From Candidatus Methanoperedens sp. (GTDB lineage Archaea > Halobacteriota > Methanosarcinia > Methanosarcinales > Methanoperedenaceae), in contig JAPZAP010000110.1 of the NCBI GenBank assembly GCA_027460585.1, positions 1 to 54,280 of the forward strand: 54,280 bases of DNA, read 5' to 3'. Position numbers and translations under genes: made by a program. Positions 15,378 to 51,000 of the stretch are shown here, one piece after another (position 1 is the stretch's first letter; every line of letters starts with the position of its first letter). A model generated the notes under the pieces. The model was not told the DNA's origin, searched no databases, and worked only from the letters and a program-made list of their open reading frames with translations.

Positions 15378-15470
15378 TGATATTATGAAACGAGATCAAC
15401 AAATGACAGCGCCACTTGAAAAAGAAATAAAAATCATATTGACTTCAATTAAATATGGATACCATGCAGT

Positions 15471-15502: not shown

Positions 15503-15607
15503 CGTTTTTAATCTATCTCCGCTTAATTAAAAAAGAACTTCATCTGATTATTACTTTCACCCTGCTATCCAAACCGTTTTTAACCCGGATAACACAGAGC
15601 TATTAAT

Positions 15608-15760
15608 ATGGATTCAAAAGAAGCACTTGTTGTTTTTGAAGGAAATAAAATAAGAAGAACGTGTCCAGCACCAAGGCAATATTGGCGCAAAATAAAAGAC
15701 AGAGAATTCCAACAACTTGAGTTGTCCCCAATTTGGGTACAACTCTGTAATAGAAGGTGA
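15608..15760 (+). pseudogene. BRO-N / DinD-like remnant (50 codons)
   Basis: An ATG at 15608 opens a 50-codon frame. It begins MDSKEALVVFEGNKIRR, which is the usual start of BRO-N/antirepressor proteins and DinD-like proteins. It then jumps to APRQYWRKIKDREFQQLEL, resembling the later PRKYW...LK segment of the same domain. The intervening strand with the YFSVVDV-type motif is missing, so an internal deletion is likely. It stops at TGA overlapping the GTG start of the Fic gene. It may survive as a translated leader for that gene. The identification is by motif memory; a profile search should confirm it. Confidence 0.55.
15721..15743. promoter_or_regulatory. Imperfect palindrome before the Fic gene
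   Basis: The sequence gttgtccccaatttgggtac followed by aac reads almost the same on both strands (gttgt..ccca..tggg..acaac). It lies 14 bases before the GTG start. The Fic protein ends in a winged helix-turn-helix, so an autoregulatory operator is possible. It overlaps the BRO remnant frame, so it could also be chance. Confidence 0.4.
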
Positions 15761-16803
15761 ATAAAATATTTAACCCGAACTTCAAGTACACTCACAAGAT
15801 AGTCAAAAATCTCGTTGATATAGCCTCAGCCAGAGAAACCATTCTTAACGCCTATCTCGTCCCAAAATGGGAAATCTCACTCAGGAGAGATGCGCTGATA
15901 AGGGCAGCACATGCATCCACAGCAATTGAAGGAAATCCACTAACCTTAGAAGAGGTCAGCCAGCTTGCTCAGGGTAGAAAAGTCACAGCAACAAGAAAAG
16001 CGCAGCAGGAAGTCATTAATTATCTTAAAGTTTTAGAAAATATAGAAAAGTATCAGGAGCAGGAGAAGATAACTGAAAAAACTGTTTTGAAATTACAGAG
16101 GGATATAACAAAAGAAACTTTAGAAAATCCTGAGCATGAGGGAAGATATAGAGAACTTCAGGTATATGTTGGCAACAGGATAACAGGGGAAGTTATTTTT
16201 ATGCCTCCACCCCTTGAAGAAGTGCCGGAGTTAATGAGCGAGTTCATAGAATGGCTCAACTCAAGCGCCTCATCCCAACTCAGCCCTGTACTTGTCGCAG
16301 GCATATCCCATTATGAATTTGTAAGAATCCACCCTTTTATTGATGGTAATGGCAGGACAACAAGGGCGTTAGCTACGCTTATCCTTTCTCTCCGGGAATT
16401 TGACATAAAAAAATTTTTTGCTCTGGACGACTATTACGATAGCGAAAGAACTGCATATTACCGCGCTTTAAAATCAGTTGAACAGAAAACGCTTGATCTT
16501 ACAGACTGGCTCGAATACTTTACAGATGGCGTTCTTCTCTCCATCGCAAAGGTACAAGAGAAGGCACTGCATCTTTCTCTGGAAAAACATAAAAAAGAGT
16601 CAAAAGGACAGATTGCTCTCACGGAAAAGCAAATGAAAATTATGGAAATTATAATTTCAAATGGGCAAATAACAAGCGGTGAAATTCAAAAGATGTTTAA
16701 AATATCACGCCAGGCAGCGCATAAGGAAATTATAAAGCTAATCGAATTAAATCTTATAGAGCAAAAAGGTGCTGGTAAGGCAATACATTATGTCATTAAA
16801 TAG
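15757..16803 (+). CDS. Fic-domain protein with C-terminal winged helix
   Basis: The 348-residue protein has the full Fic motif HPFIDGNGRTTR at residues 192-203, with catalytic histidine 192. An N-terminal inhibitory motif S54-x-x-x-E58-G59-N60 (STAIEGN) marks a self-inhibited class II Fic protein. Residues 285-348 look like a winged helix (MKIMEIIISNGQITSGEI, then SRQAAHKEIIKLIELNLIE). Fic enzymes usually AMPylate proteins. The GTG start at 15757 is set by the aagg ribosome site. It sits between hsdS and hsdM, a location repeatedly seen for Fic or other accessory proteins in type I loci, where its role is unknown. Confidence 0.88.
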   Translation: MNKIFNPNFKYTHKIVKNLVDIASARETILNAYLVPKWEISLRRDALIRAAHASTAIEGNPLTLEEVSQLAQGRKVTATRKAQQEVINYLKVLENIEKYQEQEKITEKTVLKLQRDITKETLENPEHEGRYRELQVYVGNRITGEVIFMPPPLEEVPELMSEFIEWLNSSASSQLSPVLVAGISHYEFVRIHPFIDGNGRTTRALATLILSLREFDIKKFFALDDYYDSERTAYYRALKSVEQKTLDLTDWLEYFTDGVLLSIAKVQEKALHLSLEKHKKESKGQIALTEKQMKIMEIIISNGQITSGEIQKMFKISRQAAHKEIIKLIELNLIEQKGAGKAIHYVIK

Positions 16804-17007
16804 GTTGACGCAAGAGTTGACGGAAAGGTTGACGCAAGATTACTGGAATAGGGTTGAAAACCGAAACGCTGCCGATTACTGGTACATACTTAAAAAACGC
16901 GAAGCTGAGTCAAACGGTATAGAGTTATCGAAATTTTGTAGACGACTTAAATTGTCATTTAACTTGTCATTTAGGTTGTCATTTCAAAATCTTAAAGAGA
17001 TATTAAC

Positions 17008-18555
17008 ATGGTAAAAAACAATAATGGAAGAATGGTTAATGGTCAGTCCAGCATGAACGCATACATCAAATCAGTCTGTGACATCATGCGCCGCGACAGG
17101 ACAAAAGGCGCCCTGGAGTACATTCCTGAACTTACCTGGATGATGTTCCTGCGAATACTGGATGAAAAAGAGCAGGAAGAAGAGTTAAAGTGCCAGGCAG
17201 TCGGAAAGTCGTTTACCCCCTCTCTAAAAGAACCATACAGATGGAGGGACTGGGGGAATACATACGGCAAGAAAAGAGTGGAACTGCAAAACAGCAAAAT
17301 GGGAGATTTCCTCAATTTTGTGAATAACGAATTGATTCCATACTTAAAATCATTCCAGGAAAAACCATCAGCAAACATAAAACAAAAGCTCATCTCGCAA
17401 ATCTTCAGGAACAACAACCAGACAAAACTTGCAAGTGAGACGAACCTGCTTGATGTTCTGGACAAAATAGACCATCTCACCTCAGAAAACATCGATGAAA
17501 CCCACCAGTTCCCGCTCTCGCAAATCTACGAAGGCTTGTTGTTAAAGATGGGTGAGAAAAACAATGACGGTGGGCAGTTCTTTACTCCAAGGGAAGTAAT
17601 CAGGGCGATGATTAGGGCAGTAAAGCCTGAAATAATCAAAGACGGCGCACCCGTAACGATCTATGACCCATGCTGCGGGACAGGCGGCTTCCTCGCCGAA
17701 AGTTATGCTTATTTTACTAATCCTGAACTATCAGGCAGAGAACTGAACGCAACTGAAATCGAACATTTAAAGCATGATGCTTTCTGGGGACTGGATAACA
17801 GCGACACAGCATTCCCGATCGCGCTGGCAAATTTAGTCCTGCACGGTATTGATTATCCCCATATCGGCTTGAAAAACACGCTCAGCGGCAGGGATACATA
17901 TATGGAGCTATTCGAAGGCGCACAAAGTAAATTTGATTACATATTCACAAATCCTCCTTTTGGAGGAAAAGAAGGGGAAGACGCCAAGACAAACTTTGTT
18001 TTCAAGACTGGCAATACCCAGATTTTGTTCATCCAGCATATTATAAACCATCTTGCGGATGGTGGAACATGTTCAATGGTTATCGATGAAGGAGTACTTT
18101 TCAGGACAAATGAACTGGCTTTTGTCCAGACAAAGAAAAAGCTGCTGGAAGAATGTAATTTGTGGTGTATCATAAGCTTGCCGCAGAACGCTTTCCTAAA
18201 TGCCGGCGCAGGTGTCAAGACGAACCTGTTATTCTTTACGAAAGGAAAGCCAACCCAAAAGGTCTGGTATTACGACATGTCTGATATCAAGATTCTAAAG
18301 AAAAACCCTCTGACGCTTAATAAATTCGATGACTTCCTGCACAGGCGCTGTTCTCCAAAAGAAGAAGATAAGATCAGTGAAAAAAGCTGGTTTATCGATA
18401 TAGAGACGATAAAAAGTAAAAATTATGACATAAAAGCTGTCAATCCCAATGTCAAAGAAAAAAGCATACCCAAGCCGGAAGAGCTTATCAAGATTATCGA
18501 GGATTCTCAAATTAAAATAAACGAGGGTTTAAAGAAATTGAAAGAGATTAGTTAA
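17008..18555 (+). CDS. hsdM: Type I restriction-modification DNA methyltransferase
   Basis: The 515 residues contain an N-terminal helical HsdM domain, then the adenine-N6 methyltransferase core: SAM-binding DPCCGTGGFLAES (220-232) and catalytic NPPF (315-318) in FTNPPFGGKEG. The protein methylates the site read by HsdS and protects the host. The C-terminal tail (KPEELIKIIEDSQIKINEGL) is a coiled-coil-like helix that meets HsdS. The start is ATG at 17008. It is about 200 bp downstream of the Fic gene, in a gap with short tandem words (gttgacg; ttgtcattta) and no clear gene. All three type I subunits look intact. Confidence 0.93.
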   Translation: MVKNNNGRMVNGQSSMNAYIKSVCDIMRRDRTKGALEYIPELTWMMFLRILDEKEQEEELKCQAVGKSFTPSLKEPYRWRDWGNTYGKKRVELQNSKMGDFLNFVNNELIPYLKSFQEKPSANIKQKLISQIFRNNNQTKLASETNLLDVLDKIDHLTSENIDETHQFPLSQIYEGLLLKMGEKNNDGGQFFTPREVIRAMIRAVKPEIIKDGAPVTIYDPCCGTGGFLAESYAYFTNPELSGRELNATEIEHLKHDAFWGLDNSDTAFPIALANLVLHGIDYPHIGLKNTLSGRDTYMELFEGAQSKFDYIFTNPPFGGKEGEDAKTNFVFKTGNTQILFIQHIINHLADGGTCSMVIDEGVLFRTNELAFVQTKKKLLEECNLWCIISLPQNAFLNAGAGVKTNLLFFTKGKPTQKVWYYDMSDIKILKKNPLTLNKFDDFLHRRCSPKEEDKISEKSWFIDIETIKSKNYDIKAVNPNVKEKSIPKPEELIKIIEDSQIKINEGLKKLKEIS

Positions 18556-26407: not shown

Positions 26408-26682
26408 ACATAAACATCGGAAATTCAACTTATTCTGGAAATGGTCAGATCAAATCACCACAAAGTAAGCAAAAATCGCAAAGCTCTGCAATCCCTGCAA
26501 ACAAGCATGAAACGGCGCGGCCATCACGACGAGGAACACGGATTGCGCGGATTTTCACGGATCCGCGCGTATCCGCGTTCTATCGTAATCCATCTGCGTT
26601 TATCTGCGTTTATCTGCGGCTAATATTCGTTTCATTGAGCGATAGAATCCAGGAAATTCAATTTAAACTATTCCCCATAATT
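26408..26682. repeat. Composite repeat block right of DUF1016 gene
   Basis: The block contains, in order: a GCAAAG array (caccacaaagtaagcaaaaa, then tcgcaaagctct), a CGGAT hairpin (gaacacggattgcgcggatt, then ttcacggatccgcgcgtatc), a CTGCGTTTAT array (26589-26617) and the tail ctaatattcgtttcattgag. The same parts, in nearly the same neighbourhood but differently ordered, make up 45363-45690. The frames that run through it are repeat translations, not genes. With the GTTCGT element it fills the gap up to herA. Confidence 0.8.
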
Positions 26683-26808
26683 AATGAAAAAAATAACAAC
26701 GAACTCGTGCGAACTCCATACGAACTCACACTAACGGAGTTCGTTTTAGTTCGAACAAGTTCGTTGTTTTCTCGATATTTGTTTTCATATTCAGTTATAA
26801 ACCAGAGA
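26683..26808. repeat. GTTCGT-type hairpin element, copy B
   Basis: Exact 11-base arms aacaacgaact (26695-26705) and agttcgttgtt (26758-26768) bound internal GAACTC and GTTCG units. The sequence resembles copy A at 4117-4240, including the A-run before it and the aaccagag word after it. It ends at the herA promoter, so it may influence herA transcription. Confidence 0.7.
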
Positions 26809-39964: not shown

Positions 39965-40216
39965 TTACCACGACACTACTTTATCAAATTCGAATAGCAA
40001 CTGTACTATTCTCTTATAATCTACACATTCATGCCGTATGACACCCCTCGCCTCGGCATCTGCTGAACATATATATACCTTAAATTGACCGTCTGGGATT
40101 TCATAAACAGCATCATGCAAAAGAAGAACAGCAACCTCATGTTCTTCACTCTGGGATCTAGCAATCTCAAAGGGCGTTTCATCATTGGGGTTCCGGATGA
40201 TATGGAGTAGTTTCAT
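39965..40216 (-). CDS. DsrE/TusB-like sulfur relay protein 1
   Basis: The 83-residue protein shares with its two neighbours the [YDH]D[GA]VY block (LLLHDAVY) and a single conserved cysteine, C50, in VYICSADAEARGV. This is the DsrE/TusBCD family, whose cysteine carries persulfide sulfur. It is last of a five-gene minus-strand operon, 2 bp after the next gene. The shortest of the three, closest in form to TusB/DsrH. Confidence 0.7.
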   Translation of the reverse strand: MKLLHIIRNPNDETPFEIARSQSEEHEVAVLLLHDAVYEIPDGQFKVYICSADAEARGVIRHECVDYKRIVQLLFEFDKVVSW

Positions 40217-40218
40217 AA

Positions 40219-40563
40219 TTAAAATGGTATAATAATATCCGATTCGTTCATTGTCCGAACTATTTCTTCACGGTCAGCCTTTTTTATGTTCTCGATCAAT
40301 TCCTTTATTCCCCTTTTATCCATTGAAGGTTTATCAGCAAGTAGCGTACATTTAAGCATCCTGAGCGCCCCGAATTCCCTATCCATGGAAGGGTAATTGA
40401 TCCTTTCGGGTTTTTTGCTAGTTGCCGTGTAAACCCCATCATCCATGAAAATGACCGTGACCTTATCCTCACGCAGCGTCAATCCCACGCTCATGCGCAG
40501 CGCCTCGGCATTTCTTCGCGTGTTAAAAGGAAGGTTTCTTACAATTACTGCGATCTTTTTCAT
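40219..40563 (-). CDS. DsrE-like sulfur relay protein 2
   Basis: This 114-residue protein has FMDDGVY followed by a conserved cysteine, C72, in LKCTLLADKPSMDKRG, the equivalent of the persulfide cysteine of the family. The N-terminal KIAVIVRNLPFNTRRNAEAL is a Rossmann-like start of DsrE proteins. It likely passes sulfur among its two paralogues and the TusA-like protein. It lies 2-3 bp from both neighbours. Confidence 0.75.
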   Translation of the reverse strand: MKKIAVIVRNLPFNTRRNAEALRMSVGLTLREDKVTVIFMDDGVYTATSKKPERINYPSMDREFGALRMLKCTLLADKPSMDKRGIKELIENIKKADREEIVRTMNESDIIIPF

Positions 40564-40566
40564 GAT

Positions 40567-40869
40567 TCACCCAAACGATATGAACCTGTCAACATCACTC
40601 GCGATACATGCATGGTCGTACTGGCTTCCAAACAAAATGCCATCTACTTTACCTATTTTTCTCTGTTCAGCATTAAATGCGCATATTGCTATGTCAACGC
40701 CTTTTCCGGCCAAATCTGCAAATTCTTTTTTATTTATATTATAAACGCCGTCGTACATTAAGAAAATAGATACTTCATGGCCTTCTTCCCTGGCAGCTTT
40801 GATTATTTCAATAACAGTATTTGTATTCTCATTCTCAGGACTTGTCGTCAGGAGGATCCCAAGTTTCAT
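40567..40869 (-). CDS. DsrE-like sulfur relay protein 3
   Basis: The 100 residues start MKLGILLTTSPENENTNTVI and keep FLMYDGVYNI and the cysteine C63 in DIAICAFNAEQRK. The layout equals TusD/DsrE, in which this cysteine receives sulfur from TusA. A second cysteine is present in YDHACIASD. It overlaps the tusA-like gene by 4 bp (40866-40869), so the two are probably translated together. Confidence 0.8.
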   Translation of the reverse strand: MKLGILLTTSPENENTNTVIEIIKAAREEGHEVSIFLMYDGVYNINKKEFADLAGKGVDIAICAFNAEQRKIGKVDGILFGSQYDHACIASDVDRFISFG

Positions 40870-41090
40870 GCTTTGCGTATCCTTACGTTCCAGAGATGGT
40901 CGCCTTTTTGCTCTATTCCCATGATCTTATGCCCCTCATTTTTCAGGCTTCGCGGGACATTCTCAACAGCTGGAGCATGGTCAAAAATCACGATGAGTTC
41001 CTCTCCGCTTTCTACGTCTTCAAGTTTGAGTTTCGTTTTTACGAAGGTGTAAGGGCAAACTTCACCCCTTAGGTCAAGTTCTGTTGTCAT
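40866..41090 (-). CDS. TusA-family sulfur carrier
   Basis: The 74-residue protein has the TusA/SirA hallmark RGEVCPYTFVKTKLKL with cysteine 12 (CPxT in place of the more usual CPxP). It binds sulfur as persulfide and hands it to DsrE-like proteins or to tRNA thiolation or cofactor synthesis. It sits between the E1-like gene and the three DsrE-like genes. Length and the GEELIVIFDHAPAVENVPR segment are normal for the family. Confidence 0.88.
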   Translation of the reverse strand: MTTELDLRGEVCPYTFVKTKLKLEDVESGEELIVIFDHAPAVENVPRSLKNEGHKIMGIEQKGDHLWNVRIRKA

Positions 41091-41096
41091 TTATAT

Positions 41097-41906
41097 TCAC
41101 CATATTCTGCATGAATCACCATATATTTCTTCCTGGATTGAGGTTATCTTTGGTTCTTCTCCGCAAATCGGGCAGTTCTTGTTCCAGCGCATTTTTATTT
41201 CCTGGAATGTCATGTTCAGGGCATCATAATATACAAGGCGCCCAACGAGCAATTCGCCAATCCCCAAGAGATATTTCACAACTTCAGTTGCCTGAATCAC
41301 TCCGATTATGCCCGGCAGGACCCCAAGCACCCCGGCTTCCTGGCAGCTTGGTACCATGCCTGGAGGTGGCGCATGTTCGAACAGGCACCTGTAGCAGGGC
41401 CCCTTGTGCGGGATAATAGTCGTAACCTGTCCCTCAAACCTGTAAATGCTGCCGTGTGATAATGGTTTATTGGTAATTACACATGCATCGTTCACAAGAT
41501 AACGTGTTGCAAAATTATCAGAACCATCAACTATTATATCATATTCATTGAAAATATCGATAACATTATTGGCATTCAGCCGCTCAATGTATGTTTTCAC
41601 ATCTACATCAGGATTGAGATTATTAACAAATTGTTTTGCAGATTCTGCTTTGGATTTTCCAACATTGCCGCCGTGTATGACCTGTCTCTGGAGATTGCTT
41701 AAGTCCACAGTATCATCATCGATAATTCCAATGCTGCCAATACCCGCAGCCGCAAGATATTCGATGACCGGGGAGCCAAGTCCACCTGCGCCTATGCATA
41801 ATACTTTTGATGAAAGCAATTTTTTCTGCCCTTTTCCGCCAACTTCAGGCAATATGATATGTCGTGAGTATCTTCTTATTTGTTCTTCATTGAATCCGCC
41901 GATCAT
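41097..41906 (-). CDS. E1-like adenylyltransferase, MoeB/ThiF family
   Basis: This 269-residue protein carries CIGAGGLGSPVIEYLAAAGI (nucleotide binding, about 36-55), DDDTVDLSNLQRQVIHG, the acidic VDGSDNF loop, and paired zinc cysteines CYRC and CPIC. A further cysteine in VPSCQEAGVLG occupies the active region. E1-like enzymes adenylate the C-terminus of ubiquitin-like sulfur carriers such as MoaD, ThiS or SAMPs. It heads the operon with TusA- and DsrE-like proteins, which points to sulfur transfer. The exact carrier is not in the window. Confidence 0.88.
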   Translation of the reverse strand: MIGGFNEEQIRRYSRHIILPEVGGKGQKKLLSSKVLCIGAGGLGSPVIEYLAAAGIGSIGIIDDDTVDLSNLQRQVIHGGNVGKSKAESAKQFVNNLNPDVDVKTYIERLNANNVIDIFNEYDIIVDGSDNFATRYLVNDACVITNKPLSHGSIYRFEGQVTTIIPHKGPCYRCLFEHAPPPGMVPSCQEAGVLGVLPGIIGVIQATEVVKYLLGIGELLVGRLVYYDALNMTFQEIKMRWNKNCPICGEEPKITSIQEEIYGDSCRIW

Positions 41907-41929
41907 TGTTTTATCACCATATTATTACT

Positions 41930-41964
41930 GCTGGTATTATTTACACCATAAAAGTATTACCAGC
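41930..41964 (-). promoter_or_regulatory. Inverted repeat at the sulfur-relay operon promoter
   Basis: The words gctggta (41930-41936) and taccagc (41958-41964) are exact inverted copies 28 bases apart. On the minus strand the A/T-rich word aattatttatgc just outside the second copy may be the TATA box. This could be an operator for the E1-TusA-DsrE operon. The regulator is not in sight. Confidence 0.4.
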
Positions 41965-42122
41965 ATAAATAATTTTTGGTAATGACATGACCAGCTTTGC
42001 ACATAAAGTCGCACCTGTACCTAAGTCATGAAGTTGCACCTAAAGTCGTTCAAAAACAACGCTTTAAGTGCAAAAATGAGATGAGCGCAAACTATTTATT
42101 CTCAGCCGTATAATTTGTCTGT

Positions 42123-42197
42123 GTTCGTGTAATAACGAACTAGATAAGCGGGTTCATTTTTTCAACGATACCACCCACTCCCCTTCCCGCTTATCTA
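42123..42197. ncRNA. Two adjacent hairpins, possible structured RNA or regulatory region
   Basis: In the 410-bp gap between the sulfur operon and the DUF504 gene, gttcgt (42123-42128) pairs with acgaac (42135-42140). Directly after it, tagataagcggg (42141-42152) pairs perfectly over 12 bases with cccgcttatcta (42186-42197), leaving a 33-base loop with ccacccactcccc. No gene lies here. A small RNA, a divergent regulatory site or a terminator structure are all possible; C/D box motifs are not seen. The rest of the gap shows nothing recognisable. Confidence 0.4.
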
Positions 42198-42316
42198 ATT
42201 AATAATATCATTATATGTTTTTTGACATTATTCTTGTATTATCAGGAAATTTTTATTTTATATGGATAAAGTTCGTGAAGAAATCTATTAAATATGATGC
42301 AAAATGATATTCTCTT

Positions 42317-42571
42317 ATGTTCAAGTCGAAACATCCGAGGGATATTTTCAACGAGATAAAATGGAGATTTGACCTTGCAAAATGCAAAATATATTATATC
42401 CACAGGGGTGCACCAGGGGATGTGAAAATAGTTGAGGGAAGCACTATCAAGAATATTGAAAGTTCATTCCTTGTTCTTGAGGGGGATTTCGAGGATGTGT
42501 ATATCCCGTATCACAGGATATTCAGGATCGAGTTCGATAATGAGATTATCTTTGAGAAGATACGCAAATAA
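42317..42571 (+). CDS. DUF504 / UPF0248 protein (MJ1316-type RNA-end domain)
   Basis: This 84-residue protein has the compact DUF504 pattern: PRDIFNEIKWRFDLAKCKIY, then YIHRGAPGDVKIVEGSTI and PYHRIFRIEFDNEIIFEK. The domain is widespread in archaea and has been proposed to recognise cyclic phosphate RNA ends. Length is normal for the standalone archaeal form. It is monocistronic and lies next to the tRNA-Phe gene, which may be chance. Confidence 0.85.
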   Translation: MFKSKHPRDIFNEIKWRFDLAKCKIYYIHRGAPGDVKIVEGSTIKNIESSFLVLEGDFEDVYIPYHRIFRIEFDNEIIFEKIRK

Positions 42572-42647
42572 TATGTCAAAATAGAGTCTTAAATTGTTAA
42601 AATTTGTTATTGTTATAAAGGTAAGGCACAGGATAGAATAAAACCTA

Positions 42648-42721
42648 TGCCCAGACCCGGACTTGAACCGGGGACTTCTGCGTCTTCAGCGCAGCGCTCT
42701 CCCAGGCTGAGCTATCTGGGC
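42648..42721 (-). tRNA. tRNA-Phe (anticodon GAA)
   Basis: On the minus strand the sequence folds as a standard tRNA: acceptor gcccaga paired with tctgggc, D arm tagctcagcctgggagagc, anticodon stem ctgcg/cgcag with loop ctgaaga (anticodon GAA), and T arm ccccggttcaagtccgggt-like with the TTCAA loop. The discriminator base is A and CCA is not encoded (TAGG follows), as is common in archaea. No intron is seen. Confidence 0.95.
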
Positions 42722-42739
42722 ACAACAGGTGCTAATTGC

Positions 42740-42757
42740 CGACATCGTATATGTAGG
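42740..42757 (-). promoter_or_regulatory. TATA-like box of the tRNA-Phe gene
   Basis: On the minus strand tacatatacgatg is centred about 25-30 bases before the tRNA 5' end at 42721, the expected distance for an archaeal promoter. Next to it, a short perfect hairpin aggcttcggaagcct lies at about 42753-42767. Confidence 0.5.
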
Positions 42758-42874
42758 CTTCGGAAGCCTCCTGGAATAGTCCGAAATAAGTCTGGGCAAA
42801 GAAAAACCTTTCGGTAGCGGTCATACCAAGTATTAATATAATCAAAACCAATAAAGCCGAAGAAGGTGACTGAA

Positions 42875-43750
42875 ATGGAAGATTTTCTTGATAAGCTTCA
42901 AAAAACCCGGGCCGGGTTTTTTAGTCGTACAAGGTTGGTATTTTTTCTTGACCTGATCGCTATTTTCAGCATTCTCTATGCTATTTTCATTATCGTCAAT
43001 CTTGAATATCTCTTAAGCAAGTCATCAATACCTTCATCGATCCCGATCAATATAATACCACCCGCAGTTTCGATAATTATTGCTTTAATTACTTCCGCCT
43101 TGTTGCACAAAAAAGATAAAAAAACAAATGTCATCAGGCTGATTGAAAAGAAATATCCTGAACTTAAGGAAAAACTGAGTACTGCTTATGACAACCGTGA
43201 TGAATCCAACATAATAGTTGACTCTTTAAAAACCCTTGTTTCAGAATCCATGACTTCAGTTTCACCATCGATGCTGCTTTCAAAAGGCATAATTATCTCA
43301 AAGATCATGATCACAGTTATTTTCCTTGCAGGAATGGCTTATATTTCGTTTAATCCCCAGGGGATCCAGATACCGCAAAATACCCTGGACAATGTGACAA
43401 AAGCCATTACGGGCCAAGACCAGAATAATACAGGAATAATAGATATCACAGGTCGCCCTGAGAATATGGACAATATCGGGACAAAAGGAAGCGGGGACAT
43501 TTTAGGCAAGCCAAAGATAGCATCCATTGAAGGGAAGAATATTGATCTTACACTATTTCCGGGAGATACTACGGGTACGATCGTAACTGATTATAATCCG
43601 ACCAGCAACCAGTTCATCAAGTCGGGAGCTTTCCCCGTGGATGTCCTGGGTTCAAATGTTTCTGATGGCGGCTACAGCATGCTTATGACAAAATCTGAAA
43701 CTGAAAAGCAACTAATCAATCAATACGCAATCAAAAGGAGTCAAATATGA
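42875..43750 (+). CDS. Membrane protein preceding MoxR, unknown family
   Basis: I prefer the ATG at 42875, since ggtga (42865-42869) fits as its ribosome site; a GTG at 42866 would overlap that signal. The roughly 291-residue protein has two transmembrane helices near residues 20-45 and 60-80 and a third near 145-165. A soluble tail with beta-like repeats follows (GDILGKPKIASIEGKNIDLT). It is the first gene of the MoxR/DUF58/VWA operon and likely anchors or regulates the complex. No known catalytic motif is seen. Archaeal MoxR clusters often start with such a protein. Confidence 0.7.
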   Translation: MEDFLDKLQKTRAGFFSRTRLVFFLDLIAIFSILYAIFIIVNLEYLLSKSSIPSSIPINIIPPAVSIIIALITSALLHKKDKKTNVIRLIEKKYPELKEKLSTAYDNRDESNIIVDSLKTLVSESMTSVSPSMLLSKGIIISKIMITVIFLAGMAYISFNPQGIQIPQNTLDNVTKAITGQDQNNTGIIDITGRPENMDNIGTKGSGDILGKPKIASIEGKNIDLTLFPGDTTGTIVTDYNPTSNQFIKSGAFPVDVLGSNVSDGGYSMLMTKSETEKQLINQYAIKRSQI

Positions 43751-43762
43751 GAGAGGTAAAAT

Positions 43763-44710
43763 ATGAGTAATGAGACATATTCAAGCTCGACAAGGATTTT
43801 CAAAGATCTTCTGGATGAGATAGGGAAGGTGGTAGTAGGGCAGCATGAAGCGGTTGAACAGATGATGATCGCAATTCTATGTAACAGCCACGCGCTTGTG
43901 GAAAGCAATCCAGGCCTTGCAAAAACACTTACTATAAGCACGATTTCAAAAGCGCTTGACCTTAAATTCAACAGAATACAGTGTACGCCCGACCTTATGC
44001 CATCGGATATCACAGGCACCTATATCATAGAAGATGTCGGCGGCAAGAAGCAGTTCAGGTTTGAACCAGGCCCTGTGTTTGCCAATATCGTTCTTGCCGA
44101 TGAGATAAACAGGGCATCGCCAAAGACCCAGAGCGCCATGCTTGAAGCAATGCAGGAAAAACAGGTGACTGTAGGCAATAAGACCTATCTGCTGGACAAG
44201 CCTTTTTTTATACTTGCCACGCAAAACCCGATTGAAATGGAAGGTACGTACCCCCTTCCGGAAGCGCAGCTTGACAGGTTCCTTCTCAAAATATTGATGG
44301 ATTACCCTACATTTGAGGATGAGAACGAGATAGTGAATAGATACACTAAAAATATCATTCCTGCGGTAAGAAACGTGGTCTCAAAAGCCGAAGTCCTTGA
44401 ACTCCAGAAGCTCACCCGCGATGTTCCAATCGCAGAAGATATCAAAATTAGGGCTATAAAGATCGTCGGCGCCACAAGGGCAAAAAATGACAATATCGAA
44501 TACGGCGCCTCACCTCGCGCATCGATTGGCATTATTCTTGCGGCTAAAGCCAGGGCGCTTATGAGAGGCAGGAATTATGTCAGCAAGGAAGATATCGATG
44601 AAATGGCATATCCTGTGCTGCGGCATCGTGTTATACTGACCTTTGAGTCAGAGCGCAAAGGCATGACGACCGACCATGTAATCGCGGATATTTTGAAAAA
44701 TGTGAAGTAA
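43763..44710 (+). CDS. MoxR-family AAA+ ATPase
   Basis: The 315-residue AAA+ protein shows Walker A SNPGLAKT (48-55; the usual EGVPGLAKT is changed to ESNPGLAKT), Walker B IVLADEINRASPKTQ (about 109-123), sensor FILATQNPIEMEGTYPLPEA and the arginine DRFLLKI. MoxR proteins act as chaperones with VWA proteins, for example in metal insertion or envelope functions. It would work with the downstream DUF58 and VWA genes, from which it is split by the GxxExxY insertion. Confidence 0.92.
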   Translation: MSNETYSSSTRIFKDLLDEIGKVVVGQHEAVEQMMIAILCNSHALVESNPGLAKTLTISTISKALDLKFNRIQCTPDLMPSDITGTYIIEDVGGKKQFRFEPGPVFANIVLADEINRASPKTQSAMLEAMQEKQVTVGNKTYLLDKPFFILATQNPIEMEGTYPLPEAQLDRFLLKILMDYPTFEDENEIVNRYTKNIIPAVRNVVSKAEVLELQKLTRDVPIAEDIKIRAIKIVGATRAKNDNIEYGASPRASIGIILAAKARALMRGRNYVSKEDIDEMAYPVLRHRVILTFESERKGMTTDHVIADILKNVK

Positions 44711-44790
44711 GATGATTCATAAATCAAAGCACGAATCCACTAATCGATATCAATATCCAAGTCATTCTTGTCTGGGTTTATTGGAAAACG

Positions 44791-44821
44791 AACCGCAGAT
44801 AAACGCAGATGAACGCAGATT
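44791..44821. repeat. CGCAGATRAA array, left of the GxxExxY gene
   Basis: Three tandem 10-base units (aaccgcagat, aaacgcagat, gaacgcagat) lie 90 bp before the GxxExxY start. The reverse complement of the same array, 32 bases, lies at 45368-45399 on the other side of the gene. The two arrays thus form inverted flanks. The only differences are in the order of the R base. Confidence 0.85.
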
Positions 44822-44910
44822 AATTAAGTCGGGTGAAGAAACCTATTTCTTAAACAGGAATTCTATCGCCAGTCATCATGTTTTTGAAGTGACTTACTCA
44901 TAATAATATT

Positions 44911-45324
44911 TTGAAAAATATGAACCCACTAATAAACGCAAATGAAACCCAATTGAATGAATTATCAGAGAAAATCATAGGGGCAGCATTCGAAGTCAGT
45001 AATATCCTTGGTGTGGGTTTCCTTGAAAAAGTATATGAAAATGCTTTAAATGTAGAACTTGAATTAAGAGGATTACAAGTGCAGCAACAGGCACCATTGA
45101 AAGTTTATTATAAGGATGAGTTGGTTGGGGATTATATTGCAGATATTCTGGTTAACAATGAAATTATTATCGAGTTAAAAACAGTTAAAGAATTCGATGA
45201 TATCCACATTGCTCAATGCCTGAATTACCTTAAAATTACAGGTTTAAAGCTCTGCCTGCTTATTAATTTCAGCAAACCAAGGGTAGATATAAAAAGGATA
45301 GTGAGAGGAATTGGAAATAAATAA
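44911..45324 (+). CDS. GxxExxY-family PDDEXK protein
   Basis: The 137-residue protein starts at MKNMNPLINANETQLNELSE and has the name-giving GVGFLEKVYENAL (G-x-x-E-x-x-Y), followed by a restriction-nuclease-like core: VGDYIADILVNNEIIIELK (D, E and K of the PDDEXK pattern). The family is common in environmental genomes, often next to CTGCG-type repeats, and its role is unknown. Here it interrupts the moxR-DUF58 operon and is bracketed by inverted CGCAGAT arrays. The gene is intact and shorter than the DUF1016 type. Confidence 0.85.
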   Translation: MKNMNPLINANETQLNELSEKIIGAAFEVSNILGVGFLEKVYENALNVELELRGLQVQQQAPLKVYYKDELVGDYIADILVNNEIIIELKTVKEFDDIHIAQCLNYLKITGLKLCLLINFSKPRVDIKRIVRGIGNK

Positions 45325-45362
45325 CCAACATCAAATAAAACAAAACAACCGCAATTTATATG

Positions 45363-45690
45363 GACAAATATCTGCGTTTATCTGCGTTCATCTGCGGTTG
45401 ATATTCGTTTCATTGCGCGATAGAACCCAAGAAATTAGATTTGAACTATTTCCCATTCAAGAAAAGATAGAATCTGCAAATGGTTTTATAAAATCACCGC
45501 AAAGTACGCAAAGAGCGCAAAGCTCAGCCATACCTGTTACCATGTATGAAACGTCAGCCCAATCACGAATTAGAACACGGATGACGCGGATGACACGGAT
45601 TTTCACGGATCCGTGCGTCTCCGCGCAATCCGCGTTCTATTACATCCCATCTTTGTCCTGTGTTCATCCGCGGCTAATATTATCAATGCA
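45363..45690. repeat. Composite repeat block right of the GxxExxY gene
   Basis: The block holds a CTGCGTTTAT/CTGCGTTCAT array (45368-45399), the tail gatattcgtttcattgcgcg, a GCAAAG array (caccgcaaagtacgcaaaga, then gcgcaaagctc, near 45496-45526), a CGGAT array with hairpin (gaacacggatgacgcggatg, then acacggattttcacggatcc, near 45572-45640) and the word catccgcggctaatatt. It matches the block near 26408-26682 part by part. Frames reading through it are not genes. It fills the gap before DUF58. Confidence 0.85.
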
Positions 45691-45764
45691 AGAAAAAACG
45701 GCAGCATTTTACCATGCCTCAATAAATAAAGCTATTACAATATTTTATCAAAAAAGTGACCTAA

Positions 45765-46625
45765 ATGATCGACACTTCCTTCTTCAAAGAACTTGACCGG
45801 TTCTCATTCATGGTGCGAAAGCGGGTTTCGACCGCATATAGCGGAAGCCGCCGTTCCATACTTAAAGGAAGGGGCATGGAGCCGGTGAGCTACCGGGAAT
45901 ACACGCAGGGGGATGATTTCAAGATAATCGACTGGAAAGTGTATGGCAGGACTGAGAAGTTTTATGTCAAGGAATTCGAGGAAGAAAAAAGCTTAACAAC
46001 ACACATATTACTTGACACCAGCAAGAGCATGGATTTTCGGAATAAATTTAACTATGCGGCAATGATGGCTCTGGGATTTGCTTATCTTGTGACAAAAGAC
46101 AACGAGAAATTCAGCGTTGCGGCTTTCGGCGAAGAGATAAATATCACAAAACCCAAGCGAGGGAGAAAATATCTTTCCCAGATCATAGACCTTCTCAACA
46201 GCACCGAGCTTACCGGACAAACGCGTTTTGATTATTGTATGGAAAAATATGCAAGCGTAATAAAATCAAGGTCGCTCGTAATAATCATTTCAGATTTCAT
46301 GGCTGATACTGAGGGAATCAAGAATTCGATATTCAGGCTTGGGGATAACGAACTTTTGCTCGTCCAGGTACTCGACCCGATCGAGAAAAACCTGGATCTT
46401 GGCGGAGAAGCAAAATTGATCGACCTTGAGACCGATGCGAAAATGGATATTTACACAAGCCCAAGGCTTCGCGCCGAATACCAGAAGAAGCTGAATGACC
46501 ACAATGCGAAGATAAAAGAAACATGCAATGCAGTAGGGGCGGATTTTCATACGGTAACGACGGATAAGCCTGTTTTCGATTCTATTTTTGAAGTAGTGAA
46601 CAGAAGAGAAGGGGCAAAACAATAA
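45765..46625 (+). CDS. DUF58 protein with VWA-like domain
   Basis: This 286-residue protein has the DUF58 start GSRRSILKGRGMEPVSYREY followed by GDDFKIIDWKVYGRT, and a metal-ion-dependent adhesion site LLDTSKSMDF (D84-x-S-x-S). DUF58 proteins work with MoxR ATPases in assembling or regulating envelope complexes. The last base overlaps the first of the next gene. The family is found in almost all moxR operons, which makes the assignment safe. It is cytoplasmic by lack of transmembrane helices. Confidence 0.9.
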   Translation: MIDTSFFKELDRFSFMVRKRVSTAYSGSRRSILKGRGMEPVSYREYTQGDDFKIIDWKVYGRTEKFYVKEFEEEKSLTTHILLDTSKSMDFRNKFNYAAMMALGFAYLVTKDNEKFSVAAFGEEINITKPKRGRKYLSQIIDLLNSTELTGQTRFDYCMEKYASVIKSRSLVIIISDFMADTEGIKNSIFRLGDNELLLVQVLDPIEKNLDLGGEAKLIDLETDAKMDIYTSPRLRAEYQKKLNDHNAKIKETCNAVGADFHTVTTDKPVFDSIFEVVNRREGAKQ

Positions 46626-48505
46626 TGGCACTTTTAGATACGATAACCGCCAATCCGATGCAATTCGCAAATCAGGCAGGGCTTTACGCTCTCCTTTCAA
46701 TAATCCCGCTTATCATAATTTATCTTCTAAGACCGCGCGCAAAAAAATTAAAGATCCCTTCACTGATGTTCCTTCTGGATATTGAAAAAAAGAAACGGCT
46801 CAATATTTTCAGGAAATTCCTGAAAGACCCGCTCTTCCTGATCCAGCTCCTTGCACTTATCATAATATCGTTAGCTATTGCCGCGCCTTTTATCATGGCT
46901 AACCAACAAGCGGGTGGCGGCTCAACCGTGATCATACTTGACGCATCCGCAAGCATGCAGGCCGACGGCAGATTCGGGAAAGCTGTGGTTGAAGCGAATA
47001 AATTCTTAAGCTCTAAAAATACCATCATTCTTGCCGAGAGCATTCCCGTAATGGTAATGAAGGATTCCCCATCAAGCAGCGCTTCGGATGCACTTTCCAA
47101 ATTAAAGGCAAAAGCCACAGATGTTGACCTTTCAAGCGCCATTCTCCTTGGGCGGCGCATGCTTCCTCAAGGAGGAAGGATTGTTGTGCTTTCCGATTTT
47201 ATCAGTTCAAGCGGGGACAGCCCGGCTGTCGCTAAAAAACTGGCTGAATCAAATGGCATAACAGTGGATTTTATACCAGTTAGTGGAAGGACGGATAATA
47301 TCGGGATCATTAACGGCTGGTTTGAATCAAATGGGGATTATAAAATAGTAATAAAGAACTTCAAAAAAGCAGACCAGGATGTCAAGATAGATGTTACCAT
47401 TAATGATAAGAACGCCCTCTCAAAAACTATCAACATAAAAGCGCAGTCAAGTGAATATTTCAGTGTCAGCGACCTGACTGTGAATCCTGGTGTCACCAAA
47501 ATATCAATCGATTCCCCGGATGCTCTTGCTGTTGATAATAATGCCTTTGTATTTATTCCGCCATCGGTGCAGCGTGATGTTCTCTACATAACTGATAATC
47601 CAAAATCCCCATCGCTTGTCGCTCTTGGTCTTATTCCAAATACAAAATTGACACAGGCAAATCCCAAAAGCATACCTTCTATGTCGGGAAATATCGTCAT
47701 AGTGAGCGCGGCTCTTTCTCCGGCTGCCATCAAGAACCTGGGAGATTATGTCAGCAGCGGAGGGACAGCGGTAATAATTGCATCTGCTGGTTTAAAGGAT
47801 ATGGATTTGTTGCCTGTTACACTATCATCGTTTGGAAATAAAACGTCCCTGAATATCGCCCGCCAGACTACAATAACAGCAGGCATAGACATCGAAAATA
47901 TCAATGTTAAGAAGTATTTCAAGTCGAATCTTAAGACTGGCGCCGTGGCTCTTGTCACAAGCGGAGATAAGGATAAATCATCAATGCTTGCATACTGGAA
48001 ATTCGGGACTGGTACAGTTATATATTCAGGTCTTTCCGACCCGCAGGGGAATATTTATGATCCCCTGAATGAAAATGTATGGAACGATTTCCATACGAGT
48101 TCCACCTATCCTCTATTCTGGAAACAGCTGCTTGAGTGGATAAAAGGAAGTCTTGATGTGACTGAGTATAATGCAAAGACCGGAATGCTGATGAAATTCC
48201 CTGCATCAGTAACCGTGAAAACCCCGGGGGACAAAGAGACAACCGATACGCTGCTTTTTGATGAAGTGGGTATTTATGAAGTTCCGGGGAAAAGCATTGC
48301 TGTTAATCTTTATGATGAAAGGGAGTCAAACCTTGAATCGGGAGGTCTTGAAGCTATGACCTCGAATGTTTCAGCATCGAAGGAGCCAGTATATTCGGTT
48401 GAAACCGTGCGGAAGCCACAGAACCTTGATATTTATTTTATAATTGGAGCGATGTTCCTTGTTTTCCTTGAACTTTATTACTTGCACTGGAGAGGTGAGC
48501 TTTAA
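46625..48505 (+). CDS. BatA-like VWA membrane protein
   Basis: This 626-residue protein has an N-terminal BatA-type anchor (GLYALLSIIPLIIIYLLRPRA, first helix near 20-36, second near 70-92), then a von Willebrand A domain with VIILDASASMQ (D106-x-S-x-S), then a long beta-rich region and a C-terminal helix (DIYFIIGAMFLVFLELYYLH). It is a membrane-bound partner of MoxR/DUF58. The domain after the VWA is like a CARDB/glutamine-amidotransferase-like mixture with no catalytic residues seen. It overlaps the next gene by one base. Confidence 0.85.
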   Translation: MALLDTITANPMQFANQAGLYALLSIIPLIIIYLLRPRAKKLKIPSLMFLLDIEKKKRLNIFRKFLKDPLFLIQLLALIIISLAIAAPFIMANQQAGGGSTVIILDASASMQADGRFGKAVVEANKFLSSKNTIILAESIPVMVMKDSPSSSASDALSKLKAKATDVDLSSAILLGRRMLPQGGRIVVLSDFISSSGDSPAVAKKLAESNGITVDFIPVSGRTDNIGIINGWFESNGDYKIVIKNFKKADQDVKIDVTINDKNALSKTINIKAQSSEYFSVSDLTVNPGVTKISIDSPDALAVDNNAFVFIPPSVQRDVLYITDNPKSPSLVALGLIPNTKLTQANPKSIPSMSGNIVIVSAALSPAAIKNLGDYVSSGGTAVIIASAGLKDMDLLPVTLSSFGNKTSLNIARQTTITAGIDIENINVKKYFKSNLKTGAVALVTSGDKDKSSMLAYWKFGTGTVIYSGLSDPQGNIYDPLNENVWNDFHTSSTYPLFWKQLLEWIKGSLDVTEYNAKTGMLMKFPASVTVKTPGDKETTDTLLFDEVGIYEVPGKSIAVNLYDERESNLESGGLEAMTSNVSASKEPVYSVETVRKPQNLDIYFIIGAMFLVFLELYYLHWRGEL

Positions 48506-51000
48506 TGGATTTTGCCATCCCCCAGTTTGAATATCCGCTTGCCTTATTGCTCATAAGCCCCCTGATTCTTGCAGGGATTTATGCGATCAGGCGAGGAGTA
48601 TCGAAATGGATAGTATTTTCGCGAATTATTATTCTGAGCCTCCTGATAATAGCCCTTGCATCACCTTATTCGCTGGGAATAAGCACAGTGAGGGATGATG
48701 CGCCCAGGATCACTGTGATATCAGATAAGACTCTGAGCATGGATCTATTTAATATGGATTTGGGAAAGAAATTATTCGATGCCATACAACCCAAGACCCC
48801 AACGAAATTCGATGAGTTCGCGGGAGTAAAATCCCCTATCGGCGATGAGGTTATAGGCGCGTCTGAGAATAATAATTTAGTCCTGGTCACAGACGGCAAC
48901 AACAATTATGGAAAAGACCTCTTCAATGCTATCTCGTTCGTTTCCCGCGCTGGCACGCGAGTGTTCGCGGTAAAACTAAAACCGCTGCACAATGATGCAA
49001 GCGTGGAAATAGACAGCGCAAAAAATATCATCATCGGAAATGAGAATGTTTTCAACGTAGTTGTCAGGCAGGCTGGAACCGATATAAGTTACAGGCTTGA
49101 CGTCGTGATCGATGGTACATCTGTCATGAGCAACTCTTTCACACAAAAAGAACGTGAAAAGGTCATTCCTGTCTCATACACATTTACCACACTTGGTTCG
49201 CACAAGATGACAGCAACGATAACTCCGAGCACAGAGGACAGGTTCAATCAAAACAATGTCTTCTATAAATCAGTGTTCGTTGTGCCTAAACCAAAGGTCC
49301 TGGCGGTGACTGGAGATACAGCTTCAGCCCTTTACACCGTTACAAAAAGCTTGTATGATGTCACTACAATGACCTCGCTGCCATCTGACCTTTCATCCTA
49401 CAAGGCCATAATAATAGACAATAAGGGGGCTGGTGAGTTACCTGCTGACACTTTGCGAAATTATGTGGGAAATGGAGGTGGGCTTGTTGTGGTAGGCGGA
49501 GATTCGTCGTATGATAAGGGCACTTATAATAATTCTCCCGTTGAAGCGATCCTGCCGATAATTTCAAGAGCGGGAGAGTTTACAGGGGGTAAGAATATTG
49601 TAATATTAATTGATTCGTCTGGTAGCACTAGAATAGGGTCCCCTAATTCGTACAATTCTCTTATTAATCTGATGGCAACGAATATAGTTAATAAAATCGG
49701 AAGTGATACTAGCGTTGGTGTTGTGGCATTTAGCGGAATTACAGAACAAACTGCTATACTACGGATGAGCAGTGAAACCAATAAAGCAGAACTCAAAAAT
49801 TTTATTAACATGATTGCTCCAGGGCAAGGAGAAAATCCGACTGACCTTGATAGTGGGCTTAGAGCCTCGGAAAAACTATTGAATTCAATCTCTGGAACAA
49901 AACAGATAATAATAATTTCAGATGGAGGGGTTAAATACGAAAGCCTAATACAAACTAAAAATACCGTGATAGAAATGAAAAGTGAAGGCATAAATTTCAA
50001 TTTTGTACAAATAATTCTAACACAAGCGGCACGCATGTCGGATCCTAATTATGATATACTTGCAAAAGCAGCAGGAGTCGACGTGGATATTAGATATCCA
50101 GATGAATTAGGCATTTCAGTTATTACAGAACCTTCTGCGACACCAACCCCACCAACCCCAACTGCAACCCCTGAAATTACATACCAATATCCTCTCATAG
50201 CAATAGACTCGAACCATTTCATTACAAAATATGTCAATATTACTGCATCTGTCACAGGATACAATGACGTCACACCAAAACTCGGCTCCGACAGTCTTGT
50301 AGCTACCACGCGCGGCAAACCCATCCTCACGACGTGGGGTTTCGGGCTTGGGAGAGTCGTCTCATTTACAACCGACAATGGCGCTAATGAAAATAACTGC
50401 TATTCAGGAAGTCCGGTCACCTGCTGGGCAAGTGAAGTTTACAGCGGCAGGAACTCGCAGCTTATCTCTTCTATGATAAACTGGGCTATCGGCGACCCGC
50501 GCCCTACGGGGGGGGTCGTTATACAGGCTGATGATATATGGGCGGGAACCGCAGGCAGGGTCATTGTCACATCGGATACGCTGCCGCAGGTGCAACTTGA
50601 TAAAGCCCCGCTTGATCTTTCAAGGACGGGACCGACAACATACGAAACTTCCATTAACCTTGAGACAGGGGATTTCCATGACATATCTGGATACGGCATT
50701 GCGGTGAACTATCCTCTTGAATACAGGGAGATAGGATTCAACGATAAACTCGTCCAGGCTATTGAATCAAATGGCGGGAGCGTGTATCCTGAGGATACGG
50801 CCCAGGGGCTGTTGTTCATGGATATCAAAGAAAAAGCGGTGCGAACGGTAAATGAGCCAAAAAGCGAGAAAGAACCTTTCCTTCTTGCGGCGCTCGTGTT
50901 ATTCCTGGCTGAAGTGATAATCAGGAGACTCAAAGATTACAGGAAGGACAGGCCGGTCATTGAGGAGAATCCGCCGAGAACAGCGCAGGTGGCGGAATAA
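48505..51000 (+). CDS. Large VWA / GATase-like membrane protein
   Basis: The 831-residue protein has an N-terminal two-helix anchor (residues about 10-55), a degenerate VWA domain (VISDKTLSM), a Class I amidotransferase-like fold (GGGLVVVGGDSSYDKGTYNN) into which a second VWA with IVILIDSSGSTRIG (about residue 370) is placed. A proline/threonine linker (PTPPTPTATPE) and a C-terminal helix LLAALVLFLAEVIIRRLKDY follow. The nesting is known for large VWA/GATase proteins. Bases about 49585-50265, encoding the inner VWA, are visibly more A/T-rich than the flanks. The last 251 bp recur twice downstream. Confidence 0.85.
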   Translation: MDFAIPQFEYPLALLLISPLILAGIYAIRRGVSKWIVFSRIIILSLLIIALASPYSLGISTVRDDAPRITVISDKTLSMDLFNMDLGKKLFDAIQPKTPTKFDEFAGVKSPIGDEVIGASENNNLVLVTDGNNNYGKDLFNAISFVSRAGTRVFAVKLKPLHNDASVEIDSAKNIIIGNENVFNVVVRQAGTDISYRLDVVIDGTSVMSNSFTQKEREKVIPVSYTFTTLGSHKMTATITPSTEDRFNQNNVFYKSVFVVPKPKVLAVTGDTASALYTVTKSLYDVTTMTSLPSDLSSYKAIIIDNKGAGELPADTLRNYVGNGGGLVVVGGDSSYDKGTYNNSPVEAILPIISRAGEFTGGKNIVILIDSSGSTRIGSPNSYNSLINLMATNIVNKIGSDTSVGVVAFSGITEQTAILRMSSETNKAELKNFINMIAPGQGENPTDLDSGLRASEKLLNSISGTKQIIIISDGGVKYESLIQTKNTVIEMKSEGINFNFVQIILTQAARMSDPNYDILAKAAGVDVDIRYPDELGISVITEPSATPTPPTPTATPEITYQYPLIAIDSNHFITKYVNITASVTGYNDVTPKLGSDSLVATTRGKPILTTWGFGLGRVVSFTTDNGANENNCYSGSPVTCWASEVYSGRNSQLISSMINWAIGDPRPTGGVVIQADDIWAGTAGRVIVTSDTLPQVQLDKAPLDLSRTGPTTYETSINLETGDFHDISGYGIAVNYPLEYREIGFNDKLVQAIESNGGSVYPEDTAQGLLFMDIKEKAVRTVNEPKSEKEPFLLAALVLFLAEVIIRRLKDYRKDRPVIEENPPRTAQVAE

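Follow-up and report, generated by a model that had tools for sequence, protein, structure and literature searches.

GxxExxY nuclease genes are associated with cognate palindromic repeat arrays in an archaeal order and many bacterial phyla

Introduction

In a 54,280-nucleotide stretch of DNA from Candidatus Methanoperedens sp. (hereafter the window, contig 110 of a 2.47 Mb genome that is 84% complete), a gene for a nuclease of the GxxExxY family lies between moxR and a DUF58 gene, enclosed by two arrays of a short repeated unit in inverted orientation. This arrangement raises the question of what constitutes the unit: do the repeats define it, or does the enzyme act on the repeats that surround its gene? 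The initial annotation put forward both alternatives, after noticing that a DUF1016 gene, of another nuclease family, appeared to have the same flanks. We analysed the locus, its relatives and a wide sample of GxxExxY genes, together with control genes.

Results

A nuclease gene in the loop of a palindrome

The initial annotation had described a GxxExxY gene that separates moxR from the DUF58 gene and is bounded by inverted three-unit arrays of CGCAGATRAA, and both statements were confirmed by the features of the locus:

43763-44710: MoxR-type AAA_3 neighbour gene
44731-44793, + strand: left outer flank, common to the copy L046 in genome G003 at another genomic site (left edge approximate, extended by eye beyond the blastn match)
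44794-44823, + strand: left arm, a three-unit array, CGCAGATAAA CGCAGATGAA CGCAGATTAA (pattern and repeat search)
44911-45324, + strand: GxxExxY (PDDEXK_3) nuclease gene (profile matches TIGR04256 and PF13366)
about 44926-44952, + strand: inner CGCAGAT array in decayed form, read in frame at the 5' end of the gene (by-eye alignment)
45370-45399, - strand: right arm, an inverted three-unit CGCAGAT array (pattern and repeat search)
45400-45460, + strand: right outer tail, GGTTGATATTCGTTTCATT..., common to L046 and to the array beside the DUF1016 gene (right edge approximate)
45765-46625: DUF58 neighbour gene

A repeat finder placed the arms at 44784-44820 and 45370-45406, with 86% complementarity and a perfect core of 17 nt. 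CGCAGATRAA occurs 18 times in the window with at most one mismatch, against 8.5 expected, a number reached in 0 of 100 shuffles. The units are directly adjacent with a period of 10 bp; a CRISPR array was ruled out, since no unique spacers separate them. The nuclease gene, whose start is a TTG as listed (the first ATG is at 44920), is the sole open reading frame of at least 80 aa wholly between the arms, and no transposase is encoded inside the element. The decayed inner array codes for the N-terminal peptide of the protein and may be compared, by eye, with MEPQINADERRLN of L054. An Rfam scan of positions 40000-50000 returned nothing relevant (a tRNA and one sub-threshold match).

The protein scores 148.7 bits against TIGR04256 (cut-off 35) and 145.2 bits against PF13366 (cut-off 22). 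Residues G20, E23, Y26, D62, E72 and K74 are invariant in the 12 sequences of a first alignment (A1) and intact in the window copy; in a second alignment of 58 sequences (A2, which drew 52 of the 78 stop-free loci of the GTDB sample described below and excluded L094 and L133 for their in-frame stops), D75, E85 and K87 are invariant. The window copy is under purifying selection against L046 (dN 0.026, dS 0.323, dN/dS 0.08; dS was computable in 1 of 12 comparisons). The predicted model of the 134-residue protein has a mean pLDDT of 93, and the solved folds nearest to it are of the Cas4/lambda-type exonuclease kind: Foldseek ranked first SSO0001 (4ic1), which we take to be a Cas4, as a weak match (E 3.5e-4, TM 0.55, rmsd 12 Å), followed by LHK-Exo (E 8.0e-4) and lambda exonuclease (E 6.0e-3), all with a TM of 0.55 or less, and, at rank 33, by a Holliday junction resolvase (E 0.095). 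A sequence search of the PDB with the window protein found no relative at E ≤ 1. Such a fold would be compatible with an enzyme that works at DNA ends or junctions.

GxxExxY genes lie between matched inverted arms

We assembled a sample from GTDB genomes of many phyla, consisting of the best 80 of at least 556 confirmed GxxExxY loci; these were ranked by likeness to a 12-sequence alignment from the archaeal order of the window, so that distant GxxExxY clades are under-sampled in it. Two loci were dropped for short flanks. Among the 78 testable loci, the two 150-bp flanks hold an inverted arm pair in 58 at p ≤ 0.01 and in 64 at p ≤ 0.05 (dinucleotide shuffles), leaving 20 without arms at the stricter level. 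The identical test gave p ≤ 0.01 for only 2 of 144 other open reading frames (100-300 residues, from 76 of these loci). The arrays are thus not distributed independently of this nuclease family. In the 58 loci, the arms lie at a median of 38 bp before and 29 bp after the region matched by the HMM. They mostly comprise 2-4 units of 9-10 bp; the two arms of one locus match each other, and the sequences differ between loci.

This pairing was apparent from the arrays as well. In 34 of the 80 loci, a three-unit array (score of at least 19 of 21) lies no more than 110 bp upstream of the HMM start, compared with 7 of 800 control segments. An upstream array with a score ≥ 17 is present in 48 loci, 46 of which had enough downstream sequence for comparison with their own or a swapped array: the array recurs as its own reverse complement within 400 bp downstream in 37 of these 46 and as a direct copy in 7, whereas arrays swapped between loci match in 17.8%, and the observed sum was reached in 0 of 20000 permutations. 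Hence there is a strong association, in position and in sequence, between GxxExxY genes and cognate-arm palindromes, in this archaeal order and in many bacterial phyla.

Two loci deserve separate mention. In L278 (G056:C58), the inverted arms extend well past the unit array, over about 57 nearly matching bases. L094, on a contig titled Brocadiaceae (a bacterial MAG), carries a relative 85% identical to the window's GxxExxY, with CGCAGAT-type arms and an in-frame stop; this suggests either a recent transfer between domains or mis-binning. Only 8 of 72,556 plasmid records match the window protein used as query.

DUF1016 genes do not share the association

The idea that two different nuclease families have the same flanks did not survive this comparison. 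At a fixed score of 14, inverted matches between the flanks were seen for GxxExxY genes in 48 of 78 loci (direct ones in 12), for DUF1016 genes in 1 of the 28 loci that could be tested among 30 fetched (direct repeats in 4), and for DUF58 genes in none of 27 loci used of 30 fetched (direct ones in none), the flanks being measured from the open frame for DUF1016 and DUF58 and from the HMM edges for GxxExxY. The scarcity of arms at DUF1016 genes is not for want of arrays, since 21 of the 30 loci belong to genomes with at least 10 of them. A survey of how often both nuclease families are bounded by arrays thus came out positive for GxxExxY only, and DUF1016 was ruled out as an equal user of the arrays.

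The window holds the following further repeat features:

15473-15499, - strand: CGCAGAT array, no GxxExxY gene there (pattern search)
26589-26618, - strand: CGCAGAT array downstream of DUF1016, without a GxxExxY gene (pattern search)
26695-26768, + strand: CGAACT-unit palindrome, the arm type of the GxxExxY clade of L059 (read by eye)
45473-45681, + strand: composite block of a CGCAAAG array, a CRCGGAT palindrome and a CGCGGCTAATATT remnant, outside the CGCAGAT element

The composite block, said initially to recur beside the DUF1016 gene, does so (158 of 217 alignment columns match 26434-26627), and the right arm with its tail (45367-45465) matches 26587-26690 in 88 of 104 columns. The block is built of other palindrome families, CGCAAAG and CRCGGAT, which are arm types found with other GxxExxY clades.

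The surroundings of these arrays were recorded as well. The lone array at 15473-15499 lies within a type I restriction-modification locus (11743-18555; HsdM by Pfam, with helicase-nuclease, specificity and Fic-like open reading frames named by eye). Between 18687 and 28391, the DUF1016 gene and strings of palindromes part genes for a Mre11-like phosphoesterase, a Rad50-like ATPase and NurA from HerA. Enzymes of the Mre11-Rad50 type cut hairpins, and the location may be of interest in this respect.

The arm type goes with the protein clade

Separate clades of the GxxExxY protein in this archaeal order pair with about eight types of arm. We typed the arms of 71 loci from relatives (31 returned by searches and 40 picked from the genome match list, weaker matches being omitted) and assigned clades, here and in the test in trans below, by the best tblastn match. 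The clade of the window has CGCAGAT arms in 14 of 15 near-full-length loci, including L051, whose arms are oriented the opposite way; L283, the only one of the 15 without them, runs into a contig edge. Among 3 short fragments, 1 bears such arms. In the clade of L034, all 10 loci have CACAGAG or CGCAGAG variant arms. CGCAAAG arms accompany the clade of L001 in 4 of 5 loci by the strict pattern and in all 5 if variant units and a longer distance are allowed. CGAACT arms are clear in 3 of 6 loci of their clade (inverted score ≥ 14), weaker in L059 and L060 and absent from L280. We inspected 27 of the 71 loci, mostly chosen for want of the three common arm types, and the same score revealed further pairings: CRCGGAT (3 of 5), CAGGATT (2 of 4), CACAGATT-like (7 of 7) and CACGAAT (2 of 2); none of the inverted arms reached it in L053 and L275. 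Many GxxExxY genes of relatives have three-unit arrays, with differing units, directly at the start codon.

Across the 58 loci of the GTDB sample that entered the distance test (stops in L094 and L133 set to X), protein and arm distances are correlated (Mantel r 0.36, reached in 0 of 5000 permutations), a correlation that could be explained by linked inheritance alone. We also asked whether the gene predicts its arm type in trans. Among 31 genomes of the genus, those with a near-full-length gene of the CGCAGAT clade (8) have 16.3 CGCAGAT arrays per Mb against 6.6 in those without (23), p 0.0023, and possession of a CGCAAAG-clade or a CGAACT-clade gene makes no difference to the density of CGCAGAT arrays; the corresponding own-type tests were no more than suggestive for CGCAAAG (p 0.054) and CGAACT (p 0.057), all these p values ignoring kinship among genomes. 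Since 58 of 78 loci have inverted arms and the arm type tracks the protein clade, a partnership between enzyme and array is favoured.

Most arrays are free of the gene

The genome of the window holds 125 matches to two adjacent CGCAGAT units with at most one mismatch (overlapping ones included, each three-unit array giving two), where the reversed control gave 0, and 2 GxxExxY genes, one of which has CGCAGAT arms. Nearly all its CGCAGAT arrays are therefore gene-free, and, being mostly without a nuclease gene, the arrays are units in their own right. The initial reading was thus supported in part: the repeats exist as units of their own, and the arms are tied to the GxxExxY clade; the extension to DUF1016 is what falls away.

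In 119 related genomes, own included, exact two-unit arrays reach maxima per genome of 67 (CGCAGAT), 100 (CGCAAAG), 111 (CACAGAG) and 145 (CGAACT), with reversed-pattern controls of 0-2. Many arrays are paired at close range in inverted orientation around a short loop, and both of the gene-free palindromes that we folded are strong hairpins (z -9.1 and -7.0). At least 10 array matches were found in 40 of the 45 genomes where GxxExxY matched above the cut-off against 17 of 74 without such a match (odds ratio 27), outside the genus in 18 of 23 against 8 of 65, and outside both the genus and family f5 in 18 of 22 against 6 of 21 (p 0.0007), all counts ignoring kinship within families. The 17 genomes are part of 57 array-rich ones, and many genomes are incomplete; some of the other 40 hold only GxxExxY fragments. 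Fragments and in-frame stops are frequent among GxxExxY matches, as expected if the elements spread and decay, and some of the fragments are contig ends.

Some gene-free palindromes form part of longer repeats that have their own inverted ends, so that a different transposase could be what moves them. In L244-L248 and L250 (G067 and G054), the units that enclose the CACAGAG palindromes have outer inverted ends resembling GAGACTTTTTAATTTATTCTGG / CCAGGAAATAATAAAAAGTCTC, some of them truncated, which suggests MITE-like carriers.

Insertions at intergenic sites and probable exchange of the core

We fetched 30 loci to compare the moxR-DUF58 junction and found both genes in 28, own included. The gap between them measures 0-13 bp in 10 of the 28, two of these from another genus; CGC[AG]GAT units occupy it in 10, own included, and other gaps hold unlike repeats. 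Among the 30 loci, a GxxExxY gene is present at the junction in the genome of the window only. The closest relative, G002, has no moxR within 1.5 kb of DUF58, and a comparison of 20 stretches of our genome (G000) with G002 gave no usable palindrome site. Two further contents of the junction were noted. In L064, L067, L073 (838-1407) and L075, an open reading frame (MDIKGELHFSPKY... in L073) and similar ones adjoin CGCAGAT arrays; its RNGLVHEGR stretch in L073 recalls, to our mind, HEPN proteins. In L068, L070, L071, L074, L081, L082 and L089, the gap is taken up by repeats of another family (GCGCCGCTTTACTTCGC ... AAAGCGAGGTGTCGCTTT and variants), so that unrelated repeats seem to have a hot spot at this junction.

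At L001:1463-3060 (G000:C89), the other GxxExxY gene of the genome lies beside a SIR2_2 gene, of a defence type, between thiC and a gene that we take to be cofE, and CGCAAAG arms enclose both the nuclease and the SIR2_2 gene. In 21 of 30 fetched loci, thiC and cofE are at most 26 bp apart, and in 2 the distance is 64 and 91 bp; the stretches fetched for the remaining 7, own genome included, showed no cofE. The insertions are thus derived. The search for empty sites and target duplications that the initial annotation had proposed was productive as to the former, with the moxR-DUF58 junctions of 0-13 bp and the thiC-cofE junctions of at most 26 bp, and no clear case of the latter was seen by eye at moxR-DUF58, at thiC-cofE or at the ends of L034, L044, L261, L038, L041, L043 and L046. 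No unique genomic site was found at which the palindrome occurs both with and without the gene.

Comparison of copies revealed which parts travel together. The window sequence 44749-45456 is 85.7% identical (blastn) to L046, which lies elsewhere in G003, a genome whose moxR-DUF58 junction is empty. The more distant L052, L054 and L094 align with the window element in the gene and arms only; outer flanks align in close relatives only. The gene-free L261 (G052) and the gene-bearing L034, from another family, match in their outer flanks (41 of 45 and 52 of 56 columns), possibly at separate genomic places, while the core of L261 matches four other G052 palindromes in 70-73 of 77-81 columns, and the outer flanks of those four differ. 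L041 and L043 apparently combine, as judged by eye, the left flank of one type with the right flank of another. We read the two patterns, from these alignments, as probable exchange at the arms.

Discussion

How does a nuclease gene come to lie in the loop of a palindrome whose gene-free forms abound in the same genome? The reading we favour, to which we would give an even chance, is that of a nuclease-bearing palindromic repeat element: a PD-(D/E)XK gene in the loop, gene-free copies spread in the manner of REPINs or MITEs, and homing-like spread driven by the nuclease. We infer that the nuclease acts on the palindromes around its gene and is the motor of their spread. Arms of its own type would be what it recognises, probably in cruciform or hairpin form (an arm unit of 9-10 bp corresponds to about one turn of DNA), and palindromes with such arms what it cuts. 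Another copy, aligned on the arms, would then serve as the template for repair, and the arm-loop-arm core would be copied, gene-bearing or gene-free and at times with cargo such as a SIR2-like gene. The outcome would be a homing-like gene conversion that spreads the gene and leaves gene-free and decayed copies behind. Such a mechanism would cover spread among palindromes already in place.

The nuclease gene could instead be a passenger, riding in the loop or helping indirectly while the palindromes owe their spread to a DDE transposase that works on outer terminal inverted repeats, or to replication errors at hairpins. Units ending GAGACTTTTT...AAAAAGTCTC enclose the CACAGAG palindromes of G067 and G054, outer inverted ends are apparently present in the L034-type element too (both by eye), close copies have outer flanks as well as arms in common, and the 17 array-rich genomes of 57 without a GxxExxY match would be explained. 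The alignment of L052, L054 and L094 with the window element in gene and arms only and the tracking of nuclease clade by arm type argue the other way, as does the prediction of the own arm type in trans, which is unexpected for a pure passenger and clear for one type of three; we hold this account possible but rather unlikely. If, on the other hand, the arms were recombination sites shuffling small defence genes, with the nuclease as an anti-phage effector or a resolvase of the cassette, one would understand why the second GxxExxY gene shares its loop with a SIR2_2 gene, which PADLOC models match too, with the inverted CGCAAAG arm beyond it, why L033 has an inverted arm at a similar distance, and why an inverted arm lies 0.4-0.7 kb out in L103 (481 bp), L120 (701 bp), L127 (506 bp) and L129 (400 bp). 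With a downstream arm at a median of 29 bp after the HMM end in 58 loci, however, most loops hold GxxExxY alone, and the window protein has no match among PADLOC models at E ≤ 0.01, making this explanation improbable. It is likewise quite improbable that nothing moves at all, the arms serving as an autoregulatory operator or a long-range mRNA hairpin and the gene-free palindromes as terminators or decoys. An arm does often abut or overlap the start codon, and the two folded gene-free palindromes do form strong hairpins; but dozens of gene-free copies per genome, the species-specific occupation of the same intergenic sites and the nesting of unlike palindromes need a spreading process.

The palindromes resemble REPINs, which, according to PMC3116915, are dispersed intergenic inverted doublets that form hairpins, fall into several sequence groups per genome and are linked to specific enzyme genes, the RAYTs. 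That they are ordinary REPINs moved by Y1 (RAYT) transposases, with the nuclease association incidental, is nevertheless very unlikely. Y1_Tnp genes occur in 92 of 119 relatives, but had matched inverted flanks in 0 of 30 loci, a set drawn mostly from array-poor genomes (7 from genomes with at least 10 arrays), and again in 0 of 20 further loci from array-rich genomes, 2 of which hold an array somewhere within 1.7 kb. Besides, G002 and G016 have arrays without a Y1 match, and Y1-rich genomes of family f5, such as G105, have none of four array types. With 0 of 50 Y1 loci, Y1/RAYT was ruled out as a linked driver and, the defining enzyme not being linked, the GxxExxY elements are not members of the REPIN-RAYT class. 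They differ from it further in that the enzyme is a PD-(D/E)XK nuclease and not a Y1/HUH transposase, that each arm consists of 2-4 direct units of 9-10 bp, and that the gene lies inside the palindrome. As for chance or base composition, short A/G-rich units might recur near any small intergenic gene and units of this kind are common in these genomes, but the reversed control (0 against 125), the control open reading frames (2 of 144) and the swapped arrays (0 of 20000) already refute an explanation that we regard as scarcely credible.

Among other known systems, homing endonucleases, which include enzymes of the PD-(D/E)XK type, come close: a small nuclease gene lies within a sequence that also occurs without it, and fragments and in-frame stops are frequent. 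No intron or intein was seen at GxxExxY genes, however, and the presumed target is a repeated, multi-copy palindrome. MITEs and other IS-derived non-autonomous elements likewise have many short inverted-repeat copies per genome, and some palindromes sit in units with outer inverted ends; unlike these, the window element lacks a transposase and has arms made of tandem units matched to a nuclease clade. As to DDE/IS traits, outer inverted ends were seen by eye for some copies, and no clear target duplication. The family of 23S rRNA intervening sequences (four-helix bundle, TIGR02436) is present in 2 of 119 relatives only. Finally, the Rpn proteins (YhgA-like, PF04754) are PD-(D/E)XK nucleases too, proposed to act in gene acquisition, with a discussion of the site specificity of gene location (PMC5350276). 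They form a different family, as the window protein matches only PF13366 and TIGR04256 (no PF04754 in a Pfam scan at E ≤ 0.001), and the excerpts of that account name no cognate palindromes.

In the literature searched, at the level of titles and abstract openings, we found no function for GxxExxY nucleases, no repeats with these unit sequences and no link between the two. Tentatively, and with somewhat less confidence than for the element itself, we propose that a large class of selfish palindromic elements, as yet undescribed and found in archaea as well as many bacterial phyla, may be driven by GxxExxY proteins. Each nuclease clade would cut palindromes with its own repeat-unit arms only, repair from a further copy would spread the loop, and a genome would hold several parallel nuclease-palindrome lineages, much like RAYTs and REPINs though by an unrelated chemistry. 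If so, many short palindromes of environmental genomes would be the non-autonomous progeny of GxxExxY elements. If the nuclease acts on its own arms, the origin of many intergenic palindromes in environmental archaea and bacteria would be explained, a nuclease-driven system would stand beside the RAYT-REPIN elements, and one order would offer about eight natural enzyme-target pairs for the study of DNA palindrome recognition.
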